This document shows, piece after piece, positions 18,569-64,000 of a DNA stretch of 64,000 nucleotides (the first letter of the stretch is position 1; each line of letters begins with the position of its first letter). The notes under the pieces were generated by a model. It ran no database searches, was not told the DNA's origin, and saw only the letters and a list, made by a program, of their open reading frames with translations. Both the position numbers and the translations under genes were made by a program. The stretch covers positions 1 to 64,000 of the forward strand of contig NZ_QEKW01000022.1 in the NCBI RefSeq assembly GCF_003096675.1. The letters are read 5' to 3'. This DNA is from Actinomycetospora cinnamomea (GTDB lineage Bacteria; Actinomycetota; Actinomycetes; Mycobacteriales; Pseudonocardiaceae).

Positions 18569-19561
18569 ATGAAGCTCGCTCTCTACCTGCCGAACTTCCG
18601 CGACACGGTGACCGTCAAGGAGCTCGAGGACCTCACCGCACTCGCCGAGGAGCTCGACTTCGACTCCGTCTGGACGCTCGATCGCGTCGTCGTGCCGGAG
18701 GCGTCCGACCGCGAGGAGCTCCAGCACACGTTCGGCATGATGGAGGGTCTGCCGCACGCCCTTCCGGTGACCTCCCGGGGGCAGTGGTTCCAGGGCTTCC
18801 CGCTGCTCCCGTGGCTCGCCGCGAAGACCTCGAAGGTGCGCATCGGTCAGAGCATCACCGACACCCCGTTCCGCGCGCCCGGGGTCCTCGCCGCGGAGCT
18901 GGCGACCATCGACCACCTCTCGAACGGCCGGCTCAACGTCGGCCTCGGCGCGGGCTGGATGCCCGAGGAGTTCGCCGCCGCGAGCGCGGCGCACATCTTC
19001 CCCAAGAGGCACAAGCACGTCCGCGAGACCATCGAGGTCCTGCAGGGCATCTGGGGCAACGAGCTCTTCGAGTACCACGGCGAGTTCGCCGACTTCGACC
19101 GGTGCGGGTTCGGCGCGAAGCCGCTGCAGCAGCCGCGCCCGCCGATCTTCATGAGCGGCCTCCGGGACCCCCTGCGCTCGGCGAAGCGCATCACGAAGTA
19201 CGACCTCGACGGATGGATCGGGATCCAGGACTCGCCGACCGGTCTCGGGAAGTGGCTCACGGCCATCGACCAGCAGTTCGAGGAGATCGGCAGCCCGAAG
19301 CGCTCGAAGGACCTCGAGATCTGCAGCATGATCTGGACGGTCATCACCGACGAGGAGACCGACCAGTCCGACAACGGCGTCGCGTCCAACCTCCTCGTGG
19401 GCACCGAGAAGCAGGTCACGGATCGGCTCAAGGCGTACCGGGAGGCCGGCCTGACGATGCCGCTCATCTGGCCTCCGTTCACCGACGTGCCGGTGGAGAA
19501 GACGCTCGACGACCTCAAGCGGATCAAGAACGACATCCTGCCCAGGGTCGAGGCGGCGTAG
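18569..19561 (+). CDS. LLM-class flavin/F420-dependent oxidoreductase
   Basis: A 330-residue luciferase-like TIM-barrel enzyme. It opens MKLALYLPNF, has the conserved RIGQSITDTPFRAPGVLAAE and LSNGRLNVGLGAGWMPEEF segments (cofactor pocket and dimer interface), and ends in an EKTLDDLKRIK helix. Relatives are F420-dependent dehydrogenases such as methylenetetrahydromethanopterin reductase-like (Mer) proteins. The substrate is unknown. A GAGGAGG site precedes ATG 18569. It leads a run of two more LLM genes and an acetoacetate-CoA ligase, all on one strand with gaps of 46 to 67 bases, which suggests one catabolic operon. Confidence 0.88.
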   Translation: MKLALYLPNFRDTVTVKELEDLTALAEELDFDSVWTLDRVVVPEASDREELQHTFGMMEGLPHALPVTSRGQWFQGFPLLPWLAAKTSKVRIGQSITDTPFRAPGVLAAELATIDHLSNGRLNVGLGAGWMPEEFAAASAAHIFPKRHKHVRETIEVLQGIWGNELFEYHGEFADFDRCGFGAKPLQQPRPPIFMSGLRDPLRSAKRITKYDLDGWIGIQDSPTGLGKWLTAIDQQFEEIGSPKRSKDLEICSMIWTVITDEETDQSDNGVASNLLVGTEKQVTDRLKAYREAGLTMPLIWPPFTDVPVEKTLDDLKRIKNDILPRVEAA

Positions 19562-20424: not shown

Positions 20425-21246
20425 GTGAAGTACGGAGTGGTCCTGTTCGCCACCGACGAGACCATCGCCCCGGCCGTGCTGGGGCCGGCCCTCGAGGAGC
20501 GCGGGTTCGAGTCGCTGTTCGTGCCCGAGCACTCGCACATCCCGGCGAGCCGGGAGGGCCCGGCCCCGGGTGGCGGCGACCTGCCGCGGCACTTCCACCG
20601 CACCATCGACGTCTTCGTGACCCTCGCCGTGGTCGCCGCGACCACCTCACGTCTCGGGCTCGCCACCGGGGTCGCCCTGCCCGCCGAGCGGGACGTGATC
20701 CACACGGCCAAGCAGGTCGCCAGCCTCGACCTCGTCTCCGGGGGGCGCGCGATGTTCGGCGTCGGGGTCGGATGGAACCGCGAGGAGGCCCGCGACCACG
20801 GCATCGATCCCCGCGAGCGCGGGAAGGTGCTCGACGAGAAGCTGGCCGCGATGGTCGCCATCTGGACCGAGGAGCTCGCCGAGTACCACGGGGAGTACGT
20901 CGACTTCGACCCGATGTACTGCTGGCCCAAGCCGGTGCAGGCGCCGCACCCGCCGATCTACGTCGGCGGCGGCAGCGACGCCGCCCTGCGCCGCCTGCGC
21001 GACCACGGCGACGCGTGGCTGCCCGACACCTTCGACGTCGAGACCTACCGCCGGGTCCGGTCCTGGCTGTCCGATCAGGGCCGCGCCGGCGTCCCGTTCA
21101 CCGCGTTCGGCGCCGACCCCGACGCCCTCGACCCCACCGGGTTCGACGAGGTCGGTGTCGAGCGGGTCGCGTTCTGGGTCGACCCGGTCGCCGAGCGCGA
21201 CGTGCTGCGCCGGCTCGACGCGATCGCCGAACGCTGGCTGCGCTGA
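20425..21246 (+). CDS. LLM-class F420-dependent oxidoreductase (TIGR03619-like)
   Basis: A 273-residue luciferase-like protein that matches the F420-binding subfamily: VPEHSHIP near the N-terminus, LGLATGVALPAERDVIHTAK, and GVGVGWNREEARDHGIDP, which in this subfamily line the F420 and dimer sites. The FEMDP-like CWPKPVQAPHPPIYVGGGSD segment is also typical. The substrate is unknown. ATG 20425 follows GAGGAG. The 3' end is 51 bases before the acetoacetate-CoA ligase, so it probably shares a transcript. Confidence 0.87.
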   Translation: MKYGVVLFATDETIAPAVLGPALEERGFESLFVPEHSHIPASREGPAPGGGDLPRHFHRTIDVFVTLAVVAATTSRLGLATGVALPAERDVIHTAKQVASLDLVSGGRAMFGVGVGWNREEARDHGIDPRERGKVLDEKLAAMVAIWTEELAEYHGEYVDFDPMYCWPKPVQAPHPPIYVGGGSDAALRRLRDHGDAWLPDTFDVETYRRVRSWLSDQGRAGVPFTAFGADPDALDPTGFDEVGVERVAFWVDPVAERDVLRRLDAIAERWLR

Positions 21247-21297
21247 CGGAACCCGCTCTATGTTCACCGACGGACCCTGCGCGACGAGGCGGTGCCG

Positions 21298-23277
21298 ATG
21301 ACCGAGACGCTCTGGACCCCGACGGCGAAGCGCATCCACGACTCCCCGCTCCGGGCGTACCTGGACTGGTTGGAGGAACGGGAGGGACGGGCGTTCCCCG
21401 ACCACGACACCCTGTGGGCGTGGTCGGTGGAGGACGTCGACCGCTTCTGGGTCTCCGTCGTGGACTACTTCGAGGTCGCCTTCTCCTCCCCGTGGACGCA
21501 GGTGCGCACCGCCGACCCGATGCCCCACACGCGCTGGTTCACCGGCGCGCGGCTCAACTGGGCGCAGCACCTGCTGCGCCACGGGGACGACGACGCCCCG
21601 GCCCTGGTCTGCGTGCAGGAGGGCGCCCGGCCCGAGCGGGAGATCACGTGGGGCGAGCTGCGCCGGTCGGTGGCGGCGGCCGCCGGGTGGCTGCGCCGGG
21701 CGGGCGTGCGTCCCGGTGACCGTGTCGGCGCGTACCTGCCGAACACCGAGCACGCGGTGATCGCCTGCCTCGCCACCGCCGCGGTCGGGGCGGTGTGGGC
21801 GTGCTGCTCACCCGACTTCGGCGCCGAGGGCACCATCGGCCGCCTCGCGCAGCTCGAGCCCACCGTGCTGATCGCGGTGGACGGCTACCACTGGAACGGC
21901 AAGGAGATCGACCGCGCCGACGTGGTCGCGCGGCTGCGCGAGGACCTGCCGACCGTGCAGCACGTGGTCGGTGTCCCGTACGTGTTCGACCGCCCGCAGC
22001 CCGCGGGCACGACGTCGTGGGACGACCTGCTGGCCGGTGTCGAGGGGGGTGGGGACGAGCCGCTGGAGTTCGAGCAGGTCGAGTTCTCCCACCCTCTGTG
22101 GGTGCTGTTCACCTCCGGCACCACCGGGCTGCCCAAGGGACTGGTGCACGGCCACGGCGGGATCACCCTGCAGGGCCTGATGTGGTCGGGGCTGTACGCC
22201 GGGCTGCGCCGGGGTGAGCGCATGTTCACCTACACCTCGACCGGCTGGGCGCTGTGGAACATCGAGCTGGGCGCCCTCACCCAGGGCGCGAGCATCGTGC
22301 TCTACGAGGGCGCCCCCAACCATCCGCCGGGTGCGGTCTGGGAGGTCGCGGCCCGCACCGGGGCCGACGTCGTGCTGATGGGGGCCGCCGTGGTCACCGC
22401 CACGGCCGGCACGGGGGTCTCGCCGCGCCGGGAGCACGACCTGAGCCGGCTGCGGACGGTCATGTTCAGCGGCTCGGCGCTGCCTCCGGACGGCTACCAC
22501 TGGGTGATGGAGCACGTCAGCCCCGACGTCCGCATCGACTCGACCAGCGGCGGCACCGACATCTCCGGCTCCTTCGTCGGCGCCAACGAGTACGCCCCGG
22601 TCCGCGTGGGGCGCATCGGCGGCCCGATCGCGGGCGTCGACTGCGCGGCCTGGGACGAGGCCGGCCACCCCGTCGTCGACGAGGTGGGCGATCTCGTGAT
22701 CACCCAGCCGATGCCCTCGATGCCGGTGTACCTGTGGAACGACCCCGAGGCCGTCCGGTACACGGAGTCCTACTTCGACACCTGGCCCGGGGTGTGGCGC
22801 CACGGCGACTGGGTGACGATGCACTCCGACGGCGGGGTCTCCATCCACGGTCGGTCGGACTCGACGCTCAACCGCGGCGGCGTGCGGCTGGGCAGCAGCG
22901 ACTTCTACGACGTGCTCGAGACCATGCCGGAGATCGTCGAGACCCTCGTCGTCGGGGTCGACCTGCCCGACGGCGGGTACTGGCTGGGGCTGTTCGTGGT
23001 GCCGGCGCCCGGGCACGAGCTCGACGACGCGCTGAAGGAGAAGATCGTGACCACCCTGCGGTCGCGCCTTACGCCCCGTCACACGCCGGACGAGATCCTG
23101 GAGGCGCCCGCCGTGCCGCACACCCTGACCGGCAAGCGGCTCGAGGTCCCGATCAAGAAGCTGCTCTCCGGCCGGCCGCTGGAGAAGGCCGCGAACATCG
23201 CCTCCGTCGACGACCCGGACGCGCTGCGCTGGTACGCACGGTTCGCCGCGGACCGGCGGTCCTCGACCGCGGGCTGA
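21298..23277 (+). CDS. acetoacetate-CoA ligase
   Basis: A 659-residue member of the ANL adenylating superfamily that converts acetoacetate, ATP and CoA to acetoacetyl-CoA, AMP and PPi. Evidence is length and order of motifs: the N-terminal acetoacetyl-CoA synthetase cap (residues 1-90), the P-loop LFTSGTTGLPKGLVHGHGG (about residue 268), STSGGTDISG, the hinge region GRSDSTLNRGGVRLG, and the catalytic Lys in LTGKRLEVPIKK near residue 617. ATG 21298 is favoured over GTG 21292 because of the spacing to GACGAGG. It ends a run of LLM oxidoreductases; the context suggests degradation of a compound giving acetoacetate or a beta-keto acid. Confidence 0.9.
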   Translation: MTETLWTPTAKRIHDSPLRAYLDWLEEREGRAFPDHDTLWAWSVEDVDRFWVSVVDYFEVAFSSPWTQVRTADPMPHTRWFTGARLNWAQHLLRHGDDDAPALVCVQEGARPEREITWGELRRSVAAAAGWLRRAGVRPGDRVGAYLPNTEHAVIACLATAAVGAVWACCSPDFGAEGTIGRLAQLEPTVLIAVDGYHWNGKEIDRADVVARLREDLPTVQHVVGVPYVFDRPQPAGTTSWDDLLAGVEGGGDEPLEFEQVEFSHPLWVLFTSGTTGLPKGLVHGHGGITLQGLMWSGLYAGLRRGERMFTYTSTGWALWNIELGALTQGASIVLYEGAPNHPPGAVWEVAARTGADVVLMGAAVVTATAGTGVSPRREHDLSRLRTVMFSGSALPPDGYHWVMEHVSPDVRIDSTSGGTDISGSFVGANEYAPVRVGRIGGPIAGVDCAAWDEAGHPVVDEVGDLVITQPMPSMPVYLWNDPEAVRYTESYFDTWPGVWRHGDWVTMHSDGGVSIHGRSDSTLNRGGVRLGSSDFYDVLETMPEIVETLVVGVDLPDGGYWLGLFVVPAPGHELDDALKEKIVTTLRSRLTPRHTPDEILEAPAVPHTLTGKRLEVPIKKLLSGRPLEKAANIASVDDPDALRWYARFAADRRSSTAG

Positions 23278-54631: not shown

Positions 54632-55648
54632 ATGAAGGCAGTGCGTTTCCACGAGTACGGCGGACCCGACGTCCTCCGGTACGAGGACGTGGAGCGGCCC
54701 GTCCCCGGTGCCGGGCAGGTGCGGGTGCGCGTCGCGGGCTCGGCGTTCAACCTCGTCGACGACGGCATCCGCGGCGGCTACCTGCAGGGCCCCTTTCCCG
54801 TCTCCCTGCCGCACACCCCCGGCGTCGAGGTCGCCGGGACGATCGACGCCCTGGGCGAGGGCGTGGCTGACGGCGCGGACGGCCTGCGGGTCGGGGACGA
54901 CGTCGTCGGCTTCCTCCCGATCGTGCCCGACGGCGCCGCCGCGGAGTACGTCGTCGCGCCGGCCGAGGTCCTGACGGCGGCGCCACGCAGCATCCCGCTC
55001 GCCGATGCCGCCGCGTTGCCGATGGTGGGTCTCACCGCCTGGCAGGCGTTGTTCGACGACGCGAAGCTGACCGCCGGACAGCGCGTGCTGATCAACGGTG
55101 CGGGCGGCGGGGTCGGCGGCTACGCGGTACAGCTCGCGAGGCACGCCGGGGCCCACGTCATCGCCACGGCCGGCCCGCGCAGCAGCCAACGCCTGCGAAC
55201 GCGGGGCGCCGACGAGGTCGTCGACCACACCACCACCGCGGTCACGGCGGCGGTCGGGGAGCCGGTCGACGTCCTGCTCAACCTCGCCTCGATCACCCCG
55301 GAGCAGCTCGGTGCGCTCGTCGACCTGGTCCGCGACGGCGGCGTCGCCGTGAACACGGTGCCCCGCACGCCCGTTCCCGCCGACGAGGCGCGCGGCGTGC
55401 GTGCCGTCGACGTCTTCGTCCGCAGCGACACCGAGCAGCTGGCGCGGCTGGTGGCGATGGTGGACCGCGGCGAGCTGCGGGTCGACGTCGACCGGCGCGT
55501 ACCGCTGGCGGAGCTGCCCGAGGTGCACGCCGAGGCGGCCGCGGGCACGTTGCGCGGCAAGGTCGTCGTCCTCTCCACGGCCGCCTGGCGCCCCGTCACC
55601 CCGCCAGGTACGCCAGGCCGACCGTGGCGAGGTAGATCCCGGGGATGA
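54632..55648 (+). CDS. zinc-free MDR oxidoreductase (quinone reductase-like)
   Basis: A 338-residue medium-chain dehydrogenase/reductase related to NADPH:quinone oxidoreductase. It opens MKAVRFHEYGGPDVLRYED, has the nucleotide motif INGAGGGVGGYAVQLARHAG (about residues 152-171) and no zinc-ligand cysteines. Such enzymes reduce quinones or alkenals with NADPH. ATG 54632 follows CCAGGAGG. The upstream twin palindromes suggest that it is induced when the MarR regulator releases DNA. The last 50 bases overlap the convergent exchanger gene. Confidence 0.9.
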   Translation: MKAVRFHEYGGPDVLRYEDVERPVPGAGQVRVRVAGSAFNLVDDGIRGGYLQGPFPVSLPHTPGVEVAGTIDALGEGVADGADGLRVGDDVVGFLPIVPDGAAAEYVVAPAEVLTAAPRSIPLADAAALPMVGLTAWQALFDDAKLTAGQRVLINGAGGGVGGYAVQLARHAGAHVIATAGPRSSQRLRTRGADEVVDHTTTAVTAAVGEPVDVLLNLASITPEQLGALVDLVRDGGVAVNTVPRTPVPADEARGVRAVDVFVRSDTEQLARLVAMVDRGELRVDVDRRVPLAELPEVHAEAAAGTLRGKVVVLSTAAWRPVTPPGTPGRPWRGRSRG

Positions 55649-56618
55649 GCATGCCCTCGAAGCCGACGCCCTTGCGGTCGCGGACCACGAGGGCGCCGGC
55701 GAGGACGGCGATCATCAGCGAGGTCCCGCCGAGGAGCACCAGGCTCTGGTCGCCGGCGTCGCGGTACACGGGGCCGTCGAGGTAGAAGAGGTCGGCCACC
55801 GCGATCATGAGGGTGTCGAAGGTGTTGCCGCCGATGATGTTGCCGACCCCGAGGGTCAGGGCTCCCATCCGGACGGCGGTGATGAGCACGATCAGCTCGG
55901 GCAGCGACGTGATCGCGGTCGTGAGGGTGAAGCCGACCACCCCGCTCGGCAGGCCCGTCGCCGCCACGACGCCCAGCCCGCCCCGTCCGATGGCCCACCC
56001 GGCCACGCCGACCACGAGCCCGAGCCCCGCGAGGGCCAGCCAGAGACGGGAGAGCGGCTGCTCGCTGGCCGGCTCTTGCTCCTCCTCCGTCTCGGTGGCC
56101 GACGTCCGGACCGGCTGCCACATCGGCTGCTTCTGCATGGTGCGCAACAGGTGCAGCCCGTAGGCGTAGGCCACGGGGATCAGCAGGGTCACCGGGTGGA
56201 TCCACCCCCACCTCAGGTCGGGGGTGGCGTAGGCGATGACGGGCACGGCGAGCAGTGCCATCAGGATGACGGCCTGCAGGAGGTTCTGCAGTGACGCCGC
56301 CGCGTGCTCCAGGTTGGCCCGCTTGTAGACGAGGTCCGCGATGGCCAGCCACACCGTCTGCACGGCGACTCCACCGATCGGGTTGGCCAGCCCGAACGCG
56401 GGGTCGCCGCCGAGCGAGCCGGTGACGGTGGTGACGATCCCCGGCAGCGAGGTGACCGCGCCGAGCAGCAGCGCGCCGCCGATCGCGTCACCGAGCCCGG
56501 TGCGCTCGGCCAGGGAGTCCGCGACACGCGTCAACCGCACCCCGGCGACGACGATGACGGCCGCCGCGGCCGCGAGGACGGCGAGGCTGATCCAGAGTGG
56601 CCAAGGCGAACCGGACAT
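55596..56618 (-). CDS. Na+/Ca2+ exchanger-like antiporter
   Basis: A 340-residue CaCA-superfamily antiporter with two inverted repeats. The alpha-1 motif includes GALLLGAVTSLPGIVTTVTG and the alpha-2 motif TTAITSLPELIVLITAVRMG followed by GVGNIIGGNTFDTL; these line the ion path. About ten helices with a central acidic loop (TETEEEQEPASEQ). In alpha-1 the usual acidic residue after the Ser-Pro/Leu-Pro pair is replaced by Gly, so ion preference is uncertain. ATG 56618. It is convergent with the quinone reductase gene and its last codons overlap it. Confidence 0.82.
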   Translation of the reverse strand: MSGSPWPLWISLAVLAAAAAVIVVAGVRLTRVADSLAERTGLGDAIGGALLLGAVTSLPGIVTTVTGSLGGDPAFGLANPIGGVAVQTVWLAIADLVYKRANLEHAAASLQNLLQAVILMALLAVPVIAYATPDLRWGWIHPVTLLIPVAYAYGLHLLRTMQKQPMWQPVRTSATETEEEQEPASEQPLSRLWLALAGLGLVVGVAGWAIGRGGLGVVAATGLPSGVVGFTLTTAITSLPELIVLITAVRMGALTLGVGNIIGGNTFDTLMIAVADLFYLDGPVYRDAGDQSLVLLGGTSLMIAVLAGALVVRDRKGVGFEGMLIPGIYLATVGLAYLAG

Positions 56619-56716: not shown

Positions 56717-57541
56717 TCAGGGCGCGGGCTCGTCCACCGGGTCGACCGGCACCGGGGACTCGGTGACGTCCCCGAGGTCGACGTCGGCCACCGAGGCGCT
56801 GATCGCGGTGGCGGCCGCCGACAGGGGTGAGAGTGCGTCGGCGAGTCGTGGGGCGGTCAGGGGCGCGAGGACACCGAGGGCGGCGACCACGCCGGAGGGT
56901 CCGGTGATCGGCATCGCCACCGACCACACGCCCTGTCGGTGCTCCTGAGCGCTCTGCGCGTAGCCCGAGGTGAGGATCGCGTCCAACTGGCGGCGGATCG
57001 TCCCGGGATCGGTGATCGTCCAGGGCGTGTACCGGGCCGGCGAGCGGAGCGCCTCGTCGCGCACCGCGGGCGGGCTGTGGGCGAGCAGCACCTTGCCGAC
57101 CGCGGTGCAGTGCAGAGCCGTGTGACCGCCGGGCCGGTGCCGGGTGGGTTGGGTGCGCGAGCTCGCCAGGCGCTCGACGACCAGTGCCCTGTCCCCGTCG
57201 AGCACCGCCAGGTGGACGGTGCGGCCGGTGGTGATGACCAGGTCCTGGAGGTGGGGGAGCGCCGCTTCGCGCAGCGACGCGGGCGGGGCGAGCAAGCCGA
57301 GCTGCCAGACCCTCGCCCCGATCTCGTAACGGCTGTCGGGCCTCCGGCTCAGGAGACGCGCCGCACACAGCTCACCGACCAGGCGGTGCGCCGTCGCGAC
57401 CGGCAGGCCCGCTCGGCGCGCGATGTGGGAGAGCGTCAGGGTGCGGTGGCCACCGTCGAACGCGTCGAGGACGGAGAGGGCACGTGACGTCGCCGACCGG
57501 CCGGGCGCGGTGCGCGCCGGTGGCCGCCGTTCGCGGGGCAC
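56717..57541 (-). CDS. IclR-family transcriptional regulator
   Basis: A 274-residue regulator. The N-terminal winged helix (about residues 18-75) reads RALSVLDAFDGGHRTLTLSHIARRAGLPVATAHRL (split here as family-typical), followed by an effector-binding GAF-like domain (about 95-255) with HCTAVGKVLLAHSPP and GYAQSAQEHRQGVWSVAMPI, both typical. IclR proteins control catabolic operons in response to an aromatic or organic-acid inducer. The gene is divergent from the dikinase-carboxylase operon with 144 bases between them, making it the likely regulator. Start is GTG without an obvious ribosome site. Confidence 0.9.
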   Translation of the reverse strand: MPRERRPPARTAPGRSATSRALSVLDAFDGGHRTLTLSHIARRAGLPVATAHRLVGELCAARLLSRRPDSRYEIGARVWQLGLLAPPASLREAALPHLQDLVITTGRTVHLAVLDGDRALVVERLASSRTQPTRHRPGGHTALHCTAVGKVLLAHSPPAVRDEALRSPARYTPWTITDPGTIRRQLDAILTSGYAQSAQEHRQGVWSVAMPITGPSGVVAALGVLAPLTAPRLADALSPLSAAATAISASVADVDLGDVTESPVPVDPVDEPAP

Positions 57542-57559
57542 GGCGCGATGCTAGGAACG

Positions 57560-57578
57560 CTTTCCGTGCGATGGAAGG
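57560..57578. promoter_or_regulatory. inverted repeat upstream of the carboxylase operon
   Basis: CTTTCC (57560-57565) and GGAAGG (57573-57578) match at 5 of 6 symmetric positions with a 7-base spacer. It lies in the IclR/dikinase divergent gap, 19 bases before the IclR start and about 110 bases from the operon start; IclR sites of this size are common. Confidence 0.4.
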
Positions 57579-57685
57579 GGTGAGTTGCCTCACCCGGGGA
57601 GCTGGACGACGGTCTCGCCTGTGCCGCCGCGGCTCCCAGGCGCCGGGACCCACGTCCTCGCCTGGCCCACGAGCAGAGGAGCCCC

Positions 57686-59506
57686 ATGTCCCAGCCGTCC
57701 GGCGAGCGAGCCTTCCCGCTGCCGTCCCAGATCGACGCCGTCCCGGGCGCCGAGGGCTGGGAGGAGATGTACCCGTACTTCTCCCGCTTCCAGCCCGAGG
57801 ACGACCAGCGGTTCTGGTTCTACAACTCGATGCACTTCCCGGAGGTGGTCCCCGCCTTCGACGGCCTGACCTCCGAGATCCCCTACACGGCGATCGGGGC
57901 GAACACGGCGCGGTTGTTCAGCTTCCCGACGACGCTGGGGATCGAGTACCGGATCCTCAACGGGCGGGTCTACATCACGGCCAACCCGGTGACCGACGCC
58001 GGGAAGATCGAGGAGCGACTCGCCCACTTCCAGGAACGCGCCGGCCACTACTACGCGAACTGGGACCGGCTCTACGACGGGTGGCAGGGACGGATCGAGG
58101 CGCTGATCGCCGAGATCGAGGCGGTCGAGGTGCCGCGGCTCGGGGAGCTCGACGATCTGTCCGTGGTGATGGAGTCACGCGGGTACGCGAGCAACCACCT
58201 GCTGCGGGAGAACTTCCACCGCTGCATCGACCTCTACTCGAAGATGTGGCACCACCACACCGAGTTCCTCATGCTCGGCTACGGGGCCTACGTCGTCTTC
58301 TTCGACTTCTGTCGCCAGGCCTTCCCCGAGATCGGCGACCAGACGGTGGCCCGGATGGTCGCCGGCATGGACGTCACGATGTACCGCCCGGACGACGAGC
58401 TGAAGAAGCTCGCCGCGCTGGCCGTCGAGCTCGACCTCGCCGATCTGTTCGTCGAGGGCAACGAGCCGGACAAGGTGCTCAGCGGGCTGGCGGGGCGCGG
58501 GGACGCCGGCCGCCGGTGGTTGGCGGCACTCGAGGAGGCCAAGGACCCGTGGTTCAACGTCTCGGTCGGTGACGGCTTCTACCACCACCACCTGTCGTGG
58601 GCCGACGACCTCACGGTGCCGTTCGCCGCACTGCCGCGCTACGTCGAGCAGGTCCGGGCCGGCGAGGACCTCACCCGCCCGACGGATCGGCTGGCGCAGG
58701 AGCGGGAGCGGATCGCCGACGAGTACCGCGCCCTGCTCGGCTCCGACGACGAGAAGGCCGCGTTCGACCAGATGCTCGGGCTGTGCCGCCAGGTGTTCCC
58801 CTACATCGAGTCCCACAAGTTCTACTGCGAGCACTGGTTCACCACGCGGTTCTTCCAGAGGATCCGGGCCTTCGGCGCATTGCTCGCCGACCGCGGCGTG
58901 CTCGCCGAGGCCGACGACGTTTTCCACCTGCGCCACCCCGAGGTCGAGGACGCCCTGGCCGACGTGCAGCTGGCCTGGGCGTCGGGCGGGAAGGAGCTCG
59001 GTGCCCGGCACTGGCAGCCGATCGTCGCCCGCCGCAAGGAGATCGTCGAGGCCCTGTCGCGCTGGTCGCCGCCGCCCGCTCTGGGGCCGGTGCCCGACTC
59101 GATGAACGATCCCGCCGTACAGATGCTGTGGGGCGTCACCGACGAGACCATCACGACCTGGCTCGGTGGCGAGGAGCTCGACGAGCACACCGTCCGCGGG
59201 TACGCCGCGTCTCCGGGGGTGGTCGAGGGTGTCGCCCGTGTCCTGATGAGCGTCAACGACATCGGTTCGATCCGGGAGGGCGAGGTCCTCGTCTGCCCGG
59301 TGACCGCCCCGAGCTGGGGCCCGGTGTTCGGCAAGATCGCCGCCGCGGTGTCCGACATCGGGGGCTCGATGTCGCACGCGGCGATCGTGGCCCGCGAGTA
59401 CGGCATGCCGGCCGTCGTGGGCACCGGCCAGGCGACCGCCAAGATCCGGACCGGCGATCGCCTGCGGGTCGACGGCGACCGCGGCGTCGTCACCATCCTC
59501 CGATGA
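57686..59506 (+). CDS. dikinase-type phosphotransferase, substrate/His-domain subunit
   Basis: A 606-residue protein. Residues about 1-500 form a large helical region with no close known domain, expected to bind the substrate. The last 90 residues are the mobile phosphohistidine domain of PEP-utilising enzymes: AASPGVVEGVARVLM, then GGSMSHAAIVAREYGMPAVV with catalytic His564. The C-terminal PEP/pyruvate barrel is absent, so this is not PEP synthase. The size and split match phenylphosphate synthase protein 1 (70 kDa) and the substrate and His parts of rifampicin phosphotransferase. ATG 57686 follows GCAGAGGAG. The stop overlaps the ATP-grasp gene (ATGA). Its substrate is not known. Confidence 0.75.
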   Translation: MSQPSGERAFPLPSQIDAVPGAEGWEEMYPYFSRFQPEDDQRFWFYNSMHFPEVVPAFDGLTSEIPYTAIGANTARLFSFPTTLGIEYRILNGRVYITANPVTDAGKIEERLAHFQERAGHYYANWDRLYDGWQGRIEALIAEIEAVEVPRLGELDDLSVVMESRGYASNHLLRENFHRCIDLYSKMWHHHTEFLMLGYGAYVVFFDFCRQAFPEIGDQTVARMVAGMDVTMYRPDDELKKLAALAVELDLADLFVEGNEPDKVLSGLAGRGDAGRRWLAALEEAKDPWFNVSVGDGFYHHHLSWADDLTVPFAALPRYVEQVRAGEDLTRPTDRLAQERERIADEYRALLGSDDEKAAFDQMLGLCRQVFPYIESHKFYCEHWFTTRFFQRIRAFGALLADRGVLAEADDVFHLRHPEVEDALADVQLAWASGGKELGARHWQPIVARRKEIVEALSRWSPPPALGPVPDSMNDPAVQMLWGVTDETITTWLGGEELDEHTVRGYAASPGVVEGVARVLMSVNDIGSIREGEVLVCPVTAPSWGPVFGKIAAAVSDIGGSMSHAAIVAREYGMPAVVGTGQATAKIRTGDRLRVDGDRGVVTILR

Positions 59507-60600
59507 CGGGGATCGACGTGGCCGCCCCTCCTCCCGTGCTGCGCTTCGCCGACGTCGGCCGCGACGACGTCCCCGCCGCGGGCGGCAAGGGCGCGAGTCT
59601 CGGGGAACTGATGCGAGCCGGGATCCGCGTCCCGGACGGCTTCGTGGTGACCACGGCGGCCTTCCGCTCCGCGGTCGCTGCGCTCGACCTGGGCTCCCGG
59701 GTGGCGGCCCTGGACCCGGCGGACGCCGCCGCGGTCACCGCCGCGTGCGGTGAGATGCGCTCGATCGTCGAGTCGGCGCCGCTGCCCCCCGAGGTGGCCG
59801 ACGCGGTCGTCGCCGGCTACCACCGGCTGGCCGCCGAACGCGGTGCCGAGGACCTGCCGGTGGCCGTGCGCTCGAGCGCGACCAGCGAGGACGGCGCCGA
59901 GGACAGCTTCGCCGGGTTGCAGGACACCTACCTGTGGGTGCGCGGCGCCGACGCGGTGCTGCGCGACGTGCGCCGGTGCTGGGCGAGCCTCTACAGCGTC
60001 GAGTCGGTCACCTACCGGCGGCGCCGCGGCATCGCCGAGACCGACCTCGCCATGGCCGTCGTCGTCCAGGAGATGGTCGGTGCGCGCAGTTCCGGGGTGA
60101 TGTTCACCCGCAGTCCGCTCACCGGCGACCGGTCGGTGGTCGCCATCGACGCGAGCTGGGGCCTCGGCTCCGCCGTGGTCAGTGGCGACGTCACCCCCGA
60201 CTCCTTCGTGGCCAGCAAGATCACCGGTGAGATCACCCGGCGGACCGTCTCGACCAAGTCACGCTGGCACCAGCCCGACCCCCACGGGGCCGGGGTGGTG
60301 GAGGGCGAGGTGCCGGAGAACCTGCGCGACGTCCCGTCGATCAGCGACGCGGAGATCGTCGAGCTGATCGCGATCGCCCGCAGGGTCGAGGCGCACTACG
60401 GCTGCCCGCAGGACATCGAGTGGGCGGTGTCGCGGACCGCTCCGGCCGGGGAGAGCATCGTCCTGCTGCAGAGTCGCCCCGAGACGGTGTGGGCGGGGAA
60501 GGACGCCGCGGCGTCCCCGCAGAAGGTGGCCGCGCCGGCGGCTCGCGCCTTCGACCACGTGTTCCACGCGCTGGGCGGCAAGCGCCGGGCGGAGGGCTGA
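59503..60600 (+). CDS. PPDK-type ATP-grasp subunit
   Basis: A 365-residue protein equal to the N-terminal nucleotide-binding domain of pyruvate phosphate dikinase/PEP synthase. Key residues are visible: Lys in AAGGKGASLGELMRAGI, VAVRSSATSEDGAEDSFAG (Arg binding phosphates), VVVQEMVGARSSGVMFT, and a late IEWAVS with Glu and the QSRPET motif. It should use ATP to phosphorylate the His of its partner, giving AMP and Pi. The size fits phenylphosphate synthase protein 2 (40 kDa). ATG 59503 overlaps the upstream stop, so both subunits are made together. No phenylphosphate carboxylase genes are seen; biotin carboxylase genes follow instead. Confidence 0.82.
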   Translation: MTGIDVAAPPPVLRFADVGRDDVPAAGGKGASLGELMRAGIRVPDGFVVTTAAFRSAVAALDLGSRVAALDPADAAAVTAACGEMRSIVESAPLPPEVADAVVAGYHRLAAERGAEDLPVAVRSSATSEDGAEDSFAGLQDTYLWVRGADAVLRDVRRCWASLYSVESVTYRRRRGIAETDLAMAVVVQEMVGARSSGVMFTRSPLTGDRSVVAIDASWGLGSAVVSGDVTPDSFVASKITGEITRRTVSTKSRWHQPDPHGAGVVEGEVPENLRDVPSISDAEIVELIAIARRVEAHYGCPQDIEWAVSRTAPAGESIVLLQSRPETVWAGKDAAASPQKVAAPAARAFDHVFHALGGKRRAEG

Positions 60601-60604
60601 GCAC

Positions 60605-61114
60605 GTGGATCTCACCCCGGACGACATCCGCGACGTCCTGCGTGCGGTCGACTCCAGCGGCCTGGACGAACTGCACCTCGAGCTGGCGGACCTCACCCTG
60701 ACGGTGCGCCGGGAGGGCGCGGCGGGCTGGACCGCGGAGCACCAGGTGCTCCGCCACCCGACCGTCGAGCGCGCCGGCGAGCCCGCGGTCACCGCCGCAC
60801 CCGAGAGCCCGGGCGCCGAGGTGCCCGAGGGCATGGTGGCGGTGCACCCACCGTTGCTGGGGACCTTCTACCGCGCGCCGAAGCCGGGCGCGCCCCCCTT
60901 CGTCGACGTCGGCGACGAGGTCGACGACCAGACCGTCATCGGGATCGTCGAGACCATGAAGATGATGACGCCGGTGCACGCCGGCGTCCGCGGCAGGGTG
61001 ATCGAGTTCCGGACGGGCAACGGCGAGTTCGCCGACACCGACGCCGTGCTCCTGCTGGTGGAGCCCGCGCCGGGCACGAACGGTGGGGCCGCAGCGCAAC
61101 AGGTGGAGCGATGA
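60605..61114 (+). CDS. biotin carboxyl carrier protein
   Basis: A 169-residue AccB-like protein. The biotinyl domain (about residues 78-160) carries the modified Lys119 in VETMKMMTPVHAG, with the PLLGTFYRAPKPGAPPFV segment of AccB before it. The first 30 residues (DLTPDDIRDVLRAVDSSGL) are the helix pair that binds biotin carboxylase in AccB. GTG 60605 lies four bases after the previous stop and the end overlaps the biotin carboxylase gene by four bases. It carries CO2 between carboxylase and carboxyltransferase encoded next to it. Confidence 0.93.
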   Translation: MDLTPDDIRDVLRAVDSSGLDELHLELADLTLTVRREGAAGWTAEHQVLRHPTVERAGEPAVTAAPESPGAEVPEGMVAVHPPLLGTFYRAPKPGAPPFVDVGDEVDDQTVIGIVETMKMMTPVHAGVRGRVIEFRTGNGEFADTDAVLLLVEPAPGTNGGAAAQQVER

Positions 61115-62478
61115 GGATCCGCCGCCTGCTCGTCGCCAACCGGGGCGAGATCGCCGCGCGCGTGATCCGGACCTGCACCCGCCTCGGCATCGAGTCGGTG
61201 CTCGCGGCCTCCGAGGTCGACCTCGACTCCCTGCCGGCCCGGATGGCCGACCGCGTGGTCCGCCTCGGTCCGGCACCGGCCGCCGAGTCCTACCTCGACC
61301 CCGCCGCGGTGGTCCGTGCGGCGCTGGCGGTCGGCGCGGACGCGGTGCACCCCGGTTACGGCTTCCTCTCGGAGAACCCCGCTCTCGCGGAGGCCTGTAC
61401 GGACGCGGGGCTCCTCTTCGTCGGGCCGACCGTCGAGTCGTTGCACGCGGTCGGCGACAAGCTGACCGCGCGGTCGCACGCCCTCGCCGCCGGACTGCGG
61501 GTCGTCCCCGGCGGCGAGGCCGTCGACGTGGCGGCCGCGCAGGCGGTGGCCGCCGAGGTCGGCTACCCACTGCTCGTCAAGGCCGTCGGTGGGGGCGGCG
61601 GGCGCGGGATGAAGCTCGTCGGGTCCGCCGAGGAGCTCCCGAGCACCCTCGACGTCGCGATCTCCGAGGCGGCCGCGGCCTTCGGTGATCCCCGTGTCTA
61701 CCTCGAGCGCTACGTCGCCTCCGGCCGCCACGTCGAGGTGCAGGTGCTCGGCGACGGCGTGTCCGCGATCGCCCTGGGCGACCGCGACTGCTCGGTGCAG
61801 CGTCGCTACCAGAAGCTGGTCGAGGAGGCCCCGGCGCCGCGGCTCTCCGAGGAGGTCCACGCGGCGATGGCCAGCGCGGCGCGCGCCCTGGCGGTCCACC
61901 TCGGCTACCGCGGCCTGGGCACGGTCGAGCTGCTCTACGACCAGGAACGACAGACCTTCTACTTCCTGGAGATGAACGCCCGCATCCAGGTCGAGCACCC
62001 GGTCACCGAGATGATCACCGGGCTGGACCTGGTCGCCGAGCAGCTCGCCGTGGCCGAGGGCCTGCCGCTCCGTCTGCGGCAGGACGACGTCGTCCTGACC
62101 GGTCACGCGGTGGAGTGCCGGATCAACGCCGAGGACTGGGCGCAGGACTTCCGTCCCTCGCCCGGTCGCATCGACCGCGTCCTCCTGCCCATCGGTGACG
62201 GCATCCGCGTCGACGCCGGAGTCCAGGCCGGCTCCGTCGTACCGCCGCACTACGACTCGCTGCTGGCCAAGCTGATCGTGCACGGCGTCGACCGCGCCGA
62301 CGCGCTGGCCCGGGCCCGTGCGGCGCTGGACCTGCTGCGCATCGAGGGGGTCACGACGACCGCGCCGCTGCACCGGGCGCTGCTCGACGATCCCCTGTTC
62401 ACCGCCGGCGGGGTGGACACCGCCTTCTTCGACCGGTTCCTGCAGGGTCGTCGACGCGCACCGGCGGAGGTGTCCTGA
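61111..62478 (+). CDS. biotin carboxylase
   Basis: A 455-residue ATP-grasp enzyme that carboxylates biotin with bicarbonate and ATP. It opens RRLLVANRGEIAARVIRTC, has the ATP loop KAVGGGGGRGMKLV (about residues 159-172), VEVQVLGDGVSAIALGDRDC, FLEMNARIQVEHPVTE with metal-binding Glu and Asn, and the C-terminal IEGVTTTAPLH region. The length fits a stand-alone AccC rather than a pyruvate carboxylase or an acyl-CoA carboxylase alpha fusion. It shares its stop with the following gene's ATG (TGATG). Confidence 0.93.
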   Translation: MRIRRLLVANRGEIAARVIRTCTRLGIESVLAASEVDLDSLPARMADRVVRLGPAPAAESYLDPAAVVRAALAVGADAVHPGYGFLSENPALAEACTDAGLLFVGPTVESLHAVGDKLTARSHALAAGLRVVPGGEAVDVAAAQAVAAEVGYPLLVKAVGGGGGRGMKLVGSAEELPSTLDVAISEAAAAFGDPRVYLERYVASGRHVEVQVLGDGVSAIALGDRDCSVQRRYQKLVEEAPAPRLSEEVHAAMASAARALAVHLGYRGLGTVELLYDQERQTFYFLEMNARIQVEHPVTEMITGLDLVAEQLAVAEGLPLRLRQDDVVLTGHAVECRINAEDWAQDFRPSPGRIDRVLLPIGDGIRVDAGVQAGSVVPPHYDSLLAKLIVHGVDRADALARARAALDLLRIEGVTTTAPLHRALLDDPLFTAGGVDTAFFDRFLQGRRRAPAEVS

Positions 62479-63959
62479 TGGCCGACGTCGGACTCGTCGA
62501 CGTCTCGTTGCGCGACGGCAACCAGAGTCTGTGGGGCGCTGCCGGTCTGCGCAGCGCCCACGTGCTGCAGGTGGCGCCGCTCCTCGAGAGGGTCGGCTTC
62601 CGGGCGCTGGACTACAGCTCCAGCACCGCGATGGGGATGCTGGTGCGCACCCACCGTGAGGACCCGTGGGAGCTGTTCCGCCGCACCCGCGCGCTCATGC
62701 CGGGAACGAAGCTCCAGTTCATCGGCACCGGCTTCCGCTTCATCAGCTGGCAGAACTCCCACCCCGACACCATGCAGCTGGTCTACGACAGGCTCGTCGC
62801 CAACGGCATCGACCGGGTCGTCGTCCTCGACCCCATGCACGACATGGACGCCGCCCGGGCCACGGCCCGGCGCCTCAAGAAGGCCGGCATCGACGAGGTG
62901 GTCGGCGCGCTGACCTTCACGATCAGCGCCGTGCACGACGACGCGTTCTACGCCGACGTCGCCCGCCAGATGCGCGACTGCCCCGACATCGACCGCGTCT
63001 ACGTCAAGGATCCCGCCGGGATCCTCACCGCCGAACGGGCCCGCACCCTCCTGCCGGCGGTCACGGCGGAGCTCGGCGGGACCGCGCTCGAGCTGCACTC
63101 CCACGCCACCATCGGCCTCTCGCCGCAGACCTACTCGATCGCACCCGAGCTGGGCGTCGAGGTCGTCCAGACCGGCTGTGGTGCGGCGGGCAACGGCTCC
63201 TCACTGCCGGAGGCACGCCGCACCGTGACCAACCTGCGGGAGATGGGCCACCGGATCGACATCGACGACCGCGCCCTCGGCCTGGCCTGCGGCTTCTTCG
63301 ACCGGTTGACGGTCGCCGAGGAGCTCCCCGCGGGACGGCCCCAGGACTTCGACGCCGCCTTCCTGCACCACCAGATCGCCGGCGGCGTGATGACCACGAC
63401 CCGCCGACAGCTGCGCGAGATCGGGATGGAGGACCGCTTCGCGAGCCTGATCGACGAGGTCGGGCGCGTCCGCGCGGAACTCGGTCACCCGATCATGGTC
63501 ACCCCCTTCCCGCAGATGGTGGTCTCGCAGGCTCTCTTCAACCTCATGGGCGAGCGGTACGGGAACGTGCCGGACCAGGTCATCCGGTACGCGCTCGGCA
63601 GCTTCGGACGGCCCACCACGCCCATCGAGCCCGACGTCCTCGACCGGATCCTCGGTCGCCCGCGGGCCCGCGAACTGCAGGCCGAGCCGCCGCCGCCGTC
63701 GCCGGAAGAGCTGCGCCGGCAGTTCGGCGCCGCGATGAGCGACGAGGAGCTGCTGCTGCGGGCCCACATGCCCGCGGAACAGGTCGACGCCATGGTCGCC
63801 ACCGGTCCGGCGGCGCAGCACTACAACCCTGATCTGGCCCCGGTGCTCGGCCTCCTCCGCGAACTGGGCGACCGCCCGTCCGTCCACGACCTGTCGATCA
63901 CCAAGGCCGACCTGCGCCTGTCCGTCCACCGCCGCGCGGAGGAGGCCGGCCATGGCTGA
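62478..63959 (+). CDS. carboxyltransferase, pyruvate-carboxylase type
   Basis: A 493-residue TIM-barrel carboxyltransferase of the HMGL/PYC_OADA family. Features are VSLRDGNQSLWG (metal Asp near residue 7), LDYSSSTAMGML, the Lys in YVKDPAGIL that is carbamylated in pyruvate carboxylase, and HSHATIG with two metal His residues, where pyruvate carboxylase has HTHDTSG: Asp is replaced by Ala and Ser by Ile. The C-terminal 100 residues match the PYC_OADA extension. The altered pocket hints at an acceptor other than pyruvate, larger or neutral. Its stop overlaps the next gene start by eight bases. Confidence 0.82.
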   Translation: MADVGLVDVSLRDGNQSLWGAAGLRSAHVLQVAPLLERVGFRALDYSSSTAMGMLVRTHREDPWELFRRTRALMPGTKLQFIGTGFRFISWQNSHPDTMQLVYDRLVANGIDRVVVLDPMHDMDAARATARRLKKAGIDEVVGALTFTISAVHDDAFYADVARQMRDCPDIDRVYVKDPAGILTAERARTLLPAVTAELGGTALELHSHATIGLSPQTYSIAPELGVEVVQTGCGAAGNGSSLPEARRTVTNLREMGHRIDIDDRALGLACGFFDRLTVAEELPAGRPQDFDAAFLHHQIAGGVMTTTRRQLREIGMEDRFASLIDEVGRVRAELGHPIMVTPFPQMVVSQALFNLMGERYGNVPDQVIRYALGSFGRPTTPIEPDVLDRILGRPRARELQAEPPPPSPEELRRQFGAAMSDEELLLRAHMPAEQVDAMVATGPAAQHYNPDLAPVLGLLRELGDRPSVHDLSITKADLRLSVHRRAEEAGHG

Positions 63960-64000
63960 ACCCGACGGCGCCGTCCTCGACCGGCTGCACGCGGCGCGCG
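63952..64000 (+). CDS. start of a further operon gene, cut by window end
   Basis: ATG 63952 begins eight bases before the end of the carboxyltransferase gene, after GGAGGAGG at 63939-63946. Only about 16 codons are visible (MAEPDGAVLDRLHAAR). The overlap and the ribosome site show that it belongs to the operon. Identity cannot be told; the second carboxyltransferase or a hydrolase component would be plausible. Confidence 0.5.
   Translation, partial: MAEPDGAVLDRLHAAR

Follow-up and report, generated by a model that had tools for sequence, protein, structure and literature searches.

The stretch of DNA analyzed here (the window; positions 1-64000 of contig C22, which has 70,410 bases) comes from the 5.97-Mb genome of Actinomycetospora cinnamomea and ends in a six-gene operon. 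In all likelihood, this operon belongs to the Hpe/Acv aryl-ketone pathway, with a 4-hydroxyphenyl methyl ketone (4-hydroxyacetophenone, acetovanillone) as its substrate. It very probably lets the host use lignin-derived phenolic ketones by phosphorylation followed by biotin-dependent carboxylation. Our analysis draws on the genes, their order, their homology, the predicted fold of the first protein, phylogeny, and the presence of lower-pathway gene families; the kinase, carboxylase, and phosphatase reactions are those shown in homologues only, in published work. The identity of the substrate in A. cinnamomea, the assignment of the final two steps, and the mode of regulation are what we infer from these sources.

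Gene content and the known pathway

All six genes are on the plus strand. H (57686..59506; hpeH/acvA-like, 606 aa) encodes the predicted substrate-binding and swivel (phosphohistidine) subunit of a two-component aryl-ketone kinase, and I (59503..60600; hpeI/acvB-like, 365 aa from the ATG at 59503) encodes its ATP-grasp subunit. They are followed by C (60605..61114), an hpeC-like biotin carboxyl carrier protein; BC (61111..62478), a biotin carboxylase subunit; CT (62478..63959), a pyruvate-carboxylase-type carboxyltransferase subunit; and D, an hpeD-like HAD-IIA phosphatase of 283 aa (PF13344, 3.7e-23), which begins at 63952 and runs past position 64000 to contig position 64803. Judged by sequence, the locus has the collinear gene content of an Hpe/Acv operon: a two-component kinase, a three-component biotin carboxylase, and a HAD phosphatase. 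A first-pass annotation, made from the sequence of the window alone, had listed these genes and a neighboring IclR regulator, and all of them are present with matching domains. Reading on along the contig (L009:3952-4803) identified the sixth gene, which it had left unnamed, as a HAD-IIA/NagD-like phosphatase. Its description of the genes as overlapping holds for four of the five junctions (4, 4, 1, and 8 bases); 4-base overlaps occur at only two of the five, and one junction is a 4-base gap.

The same annotation did not recall this combination as a described pathway. However, the combination is the published Hpe/Acv pathway (PMC9618137, PMC12167813), described in 2022 in other bacteria (PMC9618137), so the claim to novelty falls, even though the annotation had deduced the chemistry well without any database search. 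In Rhodococcus rhodochrous GD02, whose operon is hpeHICBADEF, acetovanillone and 4-hydroxyacetophenone are substrates for phosphorylation by HpeHI; HpeCBA accepts the resulting phospho-ketones for carboxylation but not the free ketones, HpeD strips the phosphate, and HpeE and HpeF are proposed for the final steps (PMC9618137). The phosphate is placed on the phenol hydroxyl group, and the ketone so phosphorylated is then carboxylated at its acetyl group (PMC9618137). SYK-6 carries acvABCDEF, whose genes share homology and synteny with hpeHICBAD; it has no hpeE or hpeF homologues, and its last steps are said to be carried out by the non-homologous VceA and VceB (cited in PMC9618137). Our full-text literature search returned no paper mentioning both Actinomycetospora and hydroxyacetophenone.

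By analogy, I would bind ATP and charge His564 of H, and the swivel domain of H would hand the phosphate to the phenol hydroxyl of the 4-hydroxyphenyl methyl ketone. Biotin carboxylase would then charge the biotin on C, the carboxyltransferase would add the CO2 to the phospho-ketone at its acetyl group, and D would take off the phosphate to give a 4-hydroxyphenyl-beta-ketopropionate. The operon would be regulated by the divergent IclR protein. Thus, of the substrates first proposed, a ketone enol or a phenol that is phosphorylated and then carboxylated with biotin, a phenolic ketone is very probable, and the enol is disfavored, since the homologues phosphorylate phenol hydroxyl groups.

Kinase subunits

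The PEP-utilizers mobile domain was found in H alone (1.2e-23), and PPDK_N (PF01326) was found in I (6.8e-101). The swivel motif SDIGGSMSH of H ends in the predicted catalytic His564, with Met two residues before it, and fits the definition given for two-component dikinases, T/S-x-x-G-G-x-x-x-H (PMC12167813); G559, G560, M562, and H564 are invariant across 28 aligned rows. The predicted fold of H has the substrate and swivel domains of rifampin phosphotransferase (RPH; structures 5HV1, 5FBT, and 5FBU), at 16-17% identity in the structural alignment, and I matches the RPH ATP-grasp domain by sequence. The best PDB match of I is GD02 HpeI (9goj_A; 272.8 bits, 154 of 325 aligned residues identical), and PDB sequence searches with H, CT, I, and D returned no HpeH or Hpe carboxyltransferase structure among the matches listed. 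Published work on HpeHI presents it as a relative of rifampin phosphotransferase that is divided into two components, with His581 as the catalytic residue (PMC12167813). The domain split, the histidine motif, and the RPH-like predicted fold of H thus support the earlier suggestion of a split dikinase that follows the logic of RPH and phenylphosphate synthase. The two halves do co-occur in other genomes, and those relatives whose function has been reported phosphorylate phenol, 4-cresol, or hydroxyacetophenones and are not enzymes of unrelated function.

We do not regard H/I as a rifamycin resistance phosphotransferase: RPH is a single chain with an antibiotic substrate, whereas H and I are separate chains that score 117.4 and 296.5 bits against NCBIfam RIF_Ptrans_rph, each below the cut-off of 999 bits. 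The same genome has a second H/I pair (L030, G000:C3:360336-362135), 45 and 50% identical to the operon proteins, with no biotin carboxylase match within the 19 kb read.

Carboxylase subunits

C, BC, and CT have the sequence features expected of a biotin-dependent carboxylase with a pyruvate-carboxylase-type carboxyltransferase. C (Biotin_lipoyl, PF00364) carries its predicted biotinyl site in MKM at residues 118-120 and scores 98.3 bits against TIGR00531 (below the cut-off of 115.2), and BC, with Biotin_carb_N, CPSase_L_D2, and Biotin_carb_C domains, scores 606.7 bits against PRK12833 (below the cut-off of 686). CT matches PYC_OADA (PF02436) and, weakly, HMGL-like (PF00682). Its D13, K177, H207, and H209 are invariant in a 7-row alignment; we take the metal site of such subunits to be Asp, Lys, and His-x-His.

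Comparison loci and phylogeny

Searches of plasmid records (10 records for H and 17 for CT) supplied the named comparators. A plasmid of Rhodococcus sp. JS3073 (L139) stands in for GD02: over 340 residues its I shares 97.4% identity with 9GOJ, its gene order is H, I, C, BC, CT, D, E, F, and two IclR-like stretches lie upstream on the other strand. The window operon thus resembles the GD02 operon in the content and order of its first six genes, in its divergent IclR-like neighbor, and in its RPH-like H; identities to L139 are 49% for H, 45% for I, 45% for C (86 residues only), 53% for BC, 42% for CT, and 36% for D. Rhizobium leguminosarum BT01 (L140) likewise has H-I-C-BC-CT-D-E-F, and its genes 7 and 8 are annotated as acetoacetate--CoA ligase and amidohydrolase. 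A locus from the genus of Sphingobium sp. YR768 (L174), which we take to be probably the SYK-6 Acv locus, has the same six-gene order as the window, with identities of 53% (H), 51% (I), 38% (C), 62% (BC), 51% (CT), and 43% (D); an L174-like H occurs in 8 of the 94 genomes of that genus. The window and the SYK-6 system share the six genes, the kinase clade, and last steps encoded elsewhere, but they belong to different phyla, and SYK-6 is said to rely on VceA/VceB.

Table 1 of PMC9618137 labels hpeB as the carboxyltransferase (49.3 kDa) and hpeA as the biotin carboxylase (57.4 kDa). These masses, together with the C-BC-CT order of the JS3073 operon (I 97% identical), suggest that the two labels are swapped; the sequences compared were those of JS3073.

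In a tree of 28 H rows chosen from the loci at hand, the window falls in a 17-row clade (100/99) that has a carboxylase at every locus and includes the SYK-6-type L174. Outside it lie L141 (phenylphosphate-synthase type), L142 (Cre type), carboxylase-less kinases, and L029, which does have a carboxylase. The carboxyltransferase tree (29 rows) likewise joins the window with SYK-6-type rows (97/94, 25 rows). Because both trees group the window with SYK-6-type rows, we place its operon, on sequence grounds, in an Acv-like branch, with the GD02 and L029 types as separate branches. GD02-type H joins the window H clade, Thermomicrobium roseum included, at 88/88, and in an earlier 47-row H tree without SYK-6-type rows, the clade of the window (37 rows, 100/100) likewise excluded the GD02 type and L029. 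Since the program flagged several long rows, the deep branching order is unsure.

Two further loci stand apart. L029 (G045) has a rearranged operon, C-BC-CT-D-H-I-E-F, on its own kinase and carboxylase branch and is possibly a third lineage of the pathway. The T. roseum plasmid (L143) carries an H/I pair that branches close to the Hpe/Acv kinases; its neighbors are an Lrp/AsnC-type gene and accC in the opposite orientation, with no CT match within the 17.8 kb read.

Final steps and lower pathway

Elsewhere in the genome, a run of genes on C3 comprises a PaaX-type regulator, a CoA ligase, an enoyl-CoA hydratase, an E-like gene (C3:214583-216511), a 3-hydroxyacyl-CoA dehydrogenase, and an F-like amidohydrolase gene (C3:217392-218249). 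This run resembles the hydroxycinnamate (Cou) genes, which have been named as homologues of HpeE and HpeF (PMC9618137), and in the ligase tree its E groups as sister with the E found in the L029 operon (97/94). E and F also adjoin each other in the operon-less same-genus genomes G010, G011, and G012, so their part in the operon's pathway is only putative.

The acetoacetate--CoA ligase in the window (21292-23277; TIGR01217, 749.8 bits, cut-off 520.9) is one of three paralogues in the genome. It joins only the ligase of L139 (92/90), with two long branches and a flag that the join may be false, and it lies outside the main operon-linked ligase groups; we therefore do not consider it the best candidate for the missing HpeE. 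Upstream of it are two F420-dependent LLM-class oxidoreductases (18569-19561 and 20425-21246).

Gene families for the lower pathway, among them those for 4-hydroxybenzoate and protocatechuate use, are also present and count in favor of the Hpe/Acv assignment. A 4-hydroxybenzoate 3-monooxygenase at C2:68946 scores 551.8 bits, over the cut-off of NF006091 (351) and below that of TIGR02360. Its gene adjoins one for PcaG (C2:68320-68859, over cut-off), and a related stretch below the PcaG cut-off (C2:67808-68287) is presumably PcaH. A VanA_C-domain protein is encoded at C24:31198, which alone is no proof of vanillate demethylation.

Weighing the assignment

Several observations weigh against placing the operon in the Hpe/Acv pathway. 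Identity to the comparators is modest (36-53% to GD02-type and 38-62% to SYK-6-type proteins), and the catalytic His is preceded by Ser, which CreH and PpsA also have there, where GD02 HpeH has Cys. The GD02-type loci L139/L178 have a carboxylase, but their H falls outside the 17-row H clade, and GD02-type CT falls outside the supported CT clade of the window. No hpeE or hpeF is linked to the operon, as they are in the eight-gene GD02 form; the SYK-6 form likewise lacks linked copies. The C3 genes are not tied to the operon: among 18 own and same-genus genomes, F is present in 15 and the operon in 5, and E at 86% identity or more is present in 10, namely all 5 with the operon and 5 of the 13 without it. 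Three of these genomes are less than 85% complete, so absences in them mean little. Finally, VanA_C also matched in control genomes without known vanillate use.

The modest identity, and the separate branch that window-type kinases and carboxylases form within the clade they share with SYK-6-type enzymes, would also suit the same chemistry acting on another native para-hydroxyphenyl ketone, longer-chain or differently substituted, in the actinobacterial branch; relative activity on acetosyringone already sets the GD02 and SYK-6 pathways apart (PMC13101465). Given that the six-gene order is kept with the characterized operons and that the families for 4-hydroxybenzoate and protocatechuate use are present, we consider such a substrate quite unlikely. 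A wider proposal is that the actinobacterial operons encode a form of the pathway with a function of its own: phospho-activation and biotin carboxylation would be the same, but the native substrate would be neither 4-hydroxyacetophenone nor acetovanillone, the last ligase and hydrolase would be recruited from a cluster of the hydroxycinnamate beta-oxidation type, and IclR regulator and operator would have moved between operons whose enzymes belong to different lineages; this we regard as unlikely.

Phenol or cresol catabolism, with a kinase of the PpsAB or CreHI type and a biotin carboxylase that has another purpose, is very improbable. H is 44% identical to H of the phenylphosphate synthase locus on the Azoarcus sp. 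KH32C plasmid (L141) and 43% identical to that of the R. oxybenzonivorans locus L142 (a CreHI 4-cresol kinase, Cre-type by gene content), both of which are two-component dikinases of this kind, and HpeHI itself acts on phenol and cresol too (PMC12167813). L141 shares phosphorylation before carboxylation, and L142 shares an IclR neighbor. However, window H lies outside both branches, and the neighbors differ: L141 has ppc genes for a Ppc/UbiD-type carboxylase (ppc/UbiD-UbiX) and not biotin-type subunits, so we rejected a phenylphosphate synthase system, and L142 has P450, ferredoxin, dehydrogenases, and an HD protein, with gene order I-H. In the window, it is carboxylase and phosphatase genes that overlap or abut the kinase genes. 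Still harder to credit is an aliphatic ketone (acetone, butanone) whose enol is phosphorylated and carboxylated to feed the ligase at 21292. That protein is a good acetoacetate--CoA ligase, and acetone had been suggested on its account, but its gene is about 34 kb away and outside the main operon-linked groups, and the characterized homologues phosphorylate phenol hydroxyl groups (PMC9618137, PMC12167813).

Regulator, candidate operator, and flanking genes

The IclR-family gene (56717..57541, minus strand) is divergent from the operon, beside it as first annotated, and encodes IclR_C (PF01614) and HTH_IclR (PF09339) domains. Its best NCBIfam match, PcaR/PcaU/PobR, reaches 121.5 bits, below the cut-off of 284.75. 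A candidate operator at 57561..57577, the palindrome TTTCCGTGCGATGGAAG, has two mismatches to TTTCCATNNNATGGAAA and is the sole match with at most three mismatches in 64 kb. Shuffled sequences gave a mean of 0.07, a generous control because the consensus TTTCCATNNNATGGAAA was read partly from these same sequences. The palindrome also separates IclR from H in four further Actinomycetospora loci and in L178, where it matches perfectly. When 16 loci were scanned for spacers of 1-5 with at most three mismatches, the spacer-3 form was found in eight (the window, L022, L023, L024, L026, L178, L042, and L139) and not in L140, L044, L046, L051, L027, or L179; the only sites in L034 and L037 have five mismatches and lie upstream of IclR. 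Scattered matches with other spacers were taken for chance. Thirteen loci (241,541 bases) contained five sites, four of which (L023, L025, L139, and L178) adjoin IclR genes of these operons. In L178, a 64% identical IclR gene stands divergent beside a GD02-like operon whose H is only 48% identical. Taken together, these occurrences suggest that, in some members of the group, the regulator and its site move along with the function. The words "operator" and "IclR" do not occur in the available text of PMC9618137 and PMC13101465, where alone we looked for a published hpe operator.

Beyond the IclR gene, 55596-56618 (minus strand) encodes a membrane protein that by eye resembles sodium/calcium exchangers. 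Downstream of D, genes on the other strand resemble, again by eye, a zinc ABC importer.

Distribution of the operon

We surveyed the loci of the best 80 of 333 carboxyltransferase relatives. H-I-C-BC-CT-D is collinear on one strand in 34 of them (counting tblastn matches at 35% identity or more), which bears out the conservation of the neighborhood that the first-pass annotation had proposed to check; this is not an estimate of frequency, because the 80 loci were picked for likeness to the window. At 44 loci, the stretch examined has no H match; these include most sphingomonad loci and several stretches that end at a contig end. An HpeE-type ligase lies directly upstream of H in 24 of the 80, and the six-gene order and/or this ligase occurs among Geodermatophilus, Modestobacter, Blastococcus, Prauserella, and Streptomyces. 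In Prauserella and at two Geodermatophilus loci, the ligase is itself preceded by an IclR gene, and the Actinomycetospora loci read lack a linked ligase. Actinomycetospora straminea (L038) is one of the strains that carry the operon. H is present at 89-100% identity in 5 of the 18 own and same-genus genomes (G000, G004, G005, G007 in two pieces, and G008) and at 84 and 74% in two other family members. The Hpe pathway has been called uncommon, with four further complete syntenous clusters (PMC9618137), and kinase and carboxylase were clustered in 52 of 836 cases (PMC13101465).

Loci L081-L112 except L099 and L108, mostly from Novosphingobium and other sphingomonads, have C-BC-CT-D with no H or I match in the stretch fetched. 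Such carboxylase loci may fit the published single-component kinase MarK (cited in PMC13101465).

The known chemistry of the pathway is unchanged by this survey, which provides new enzyme variants for the conversion of lignin-derived ketones and a regulator/operator pair that can be tested.

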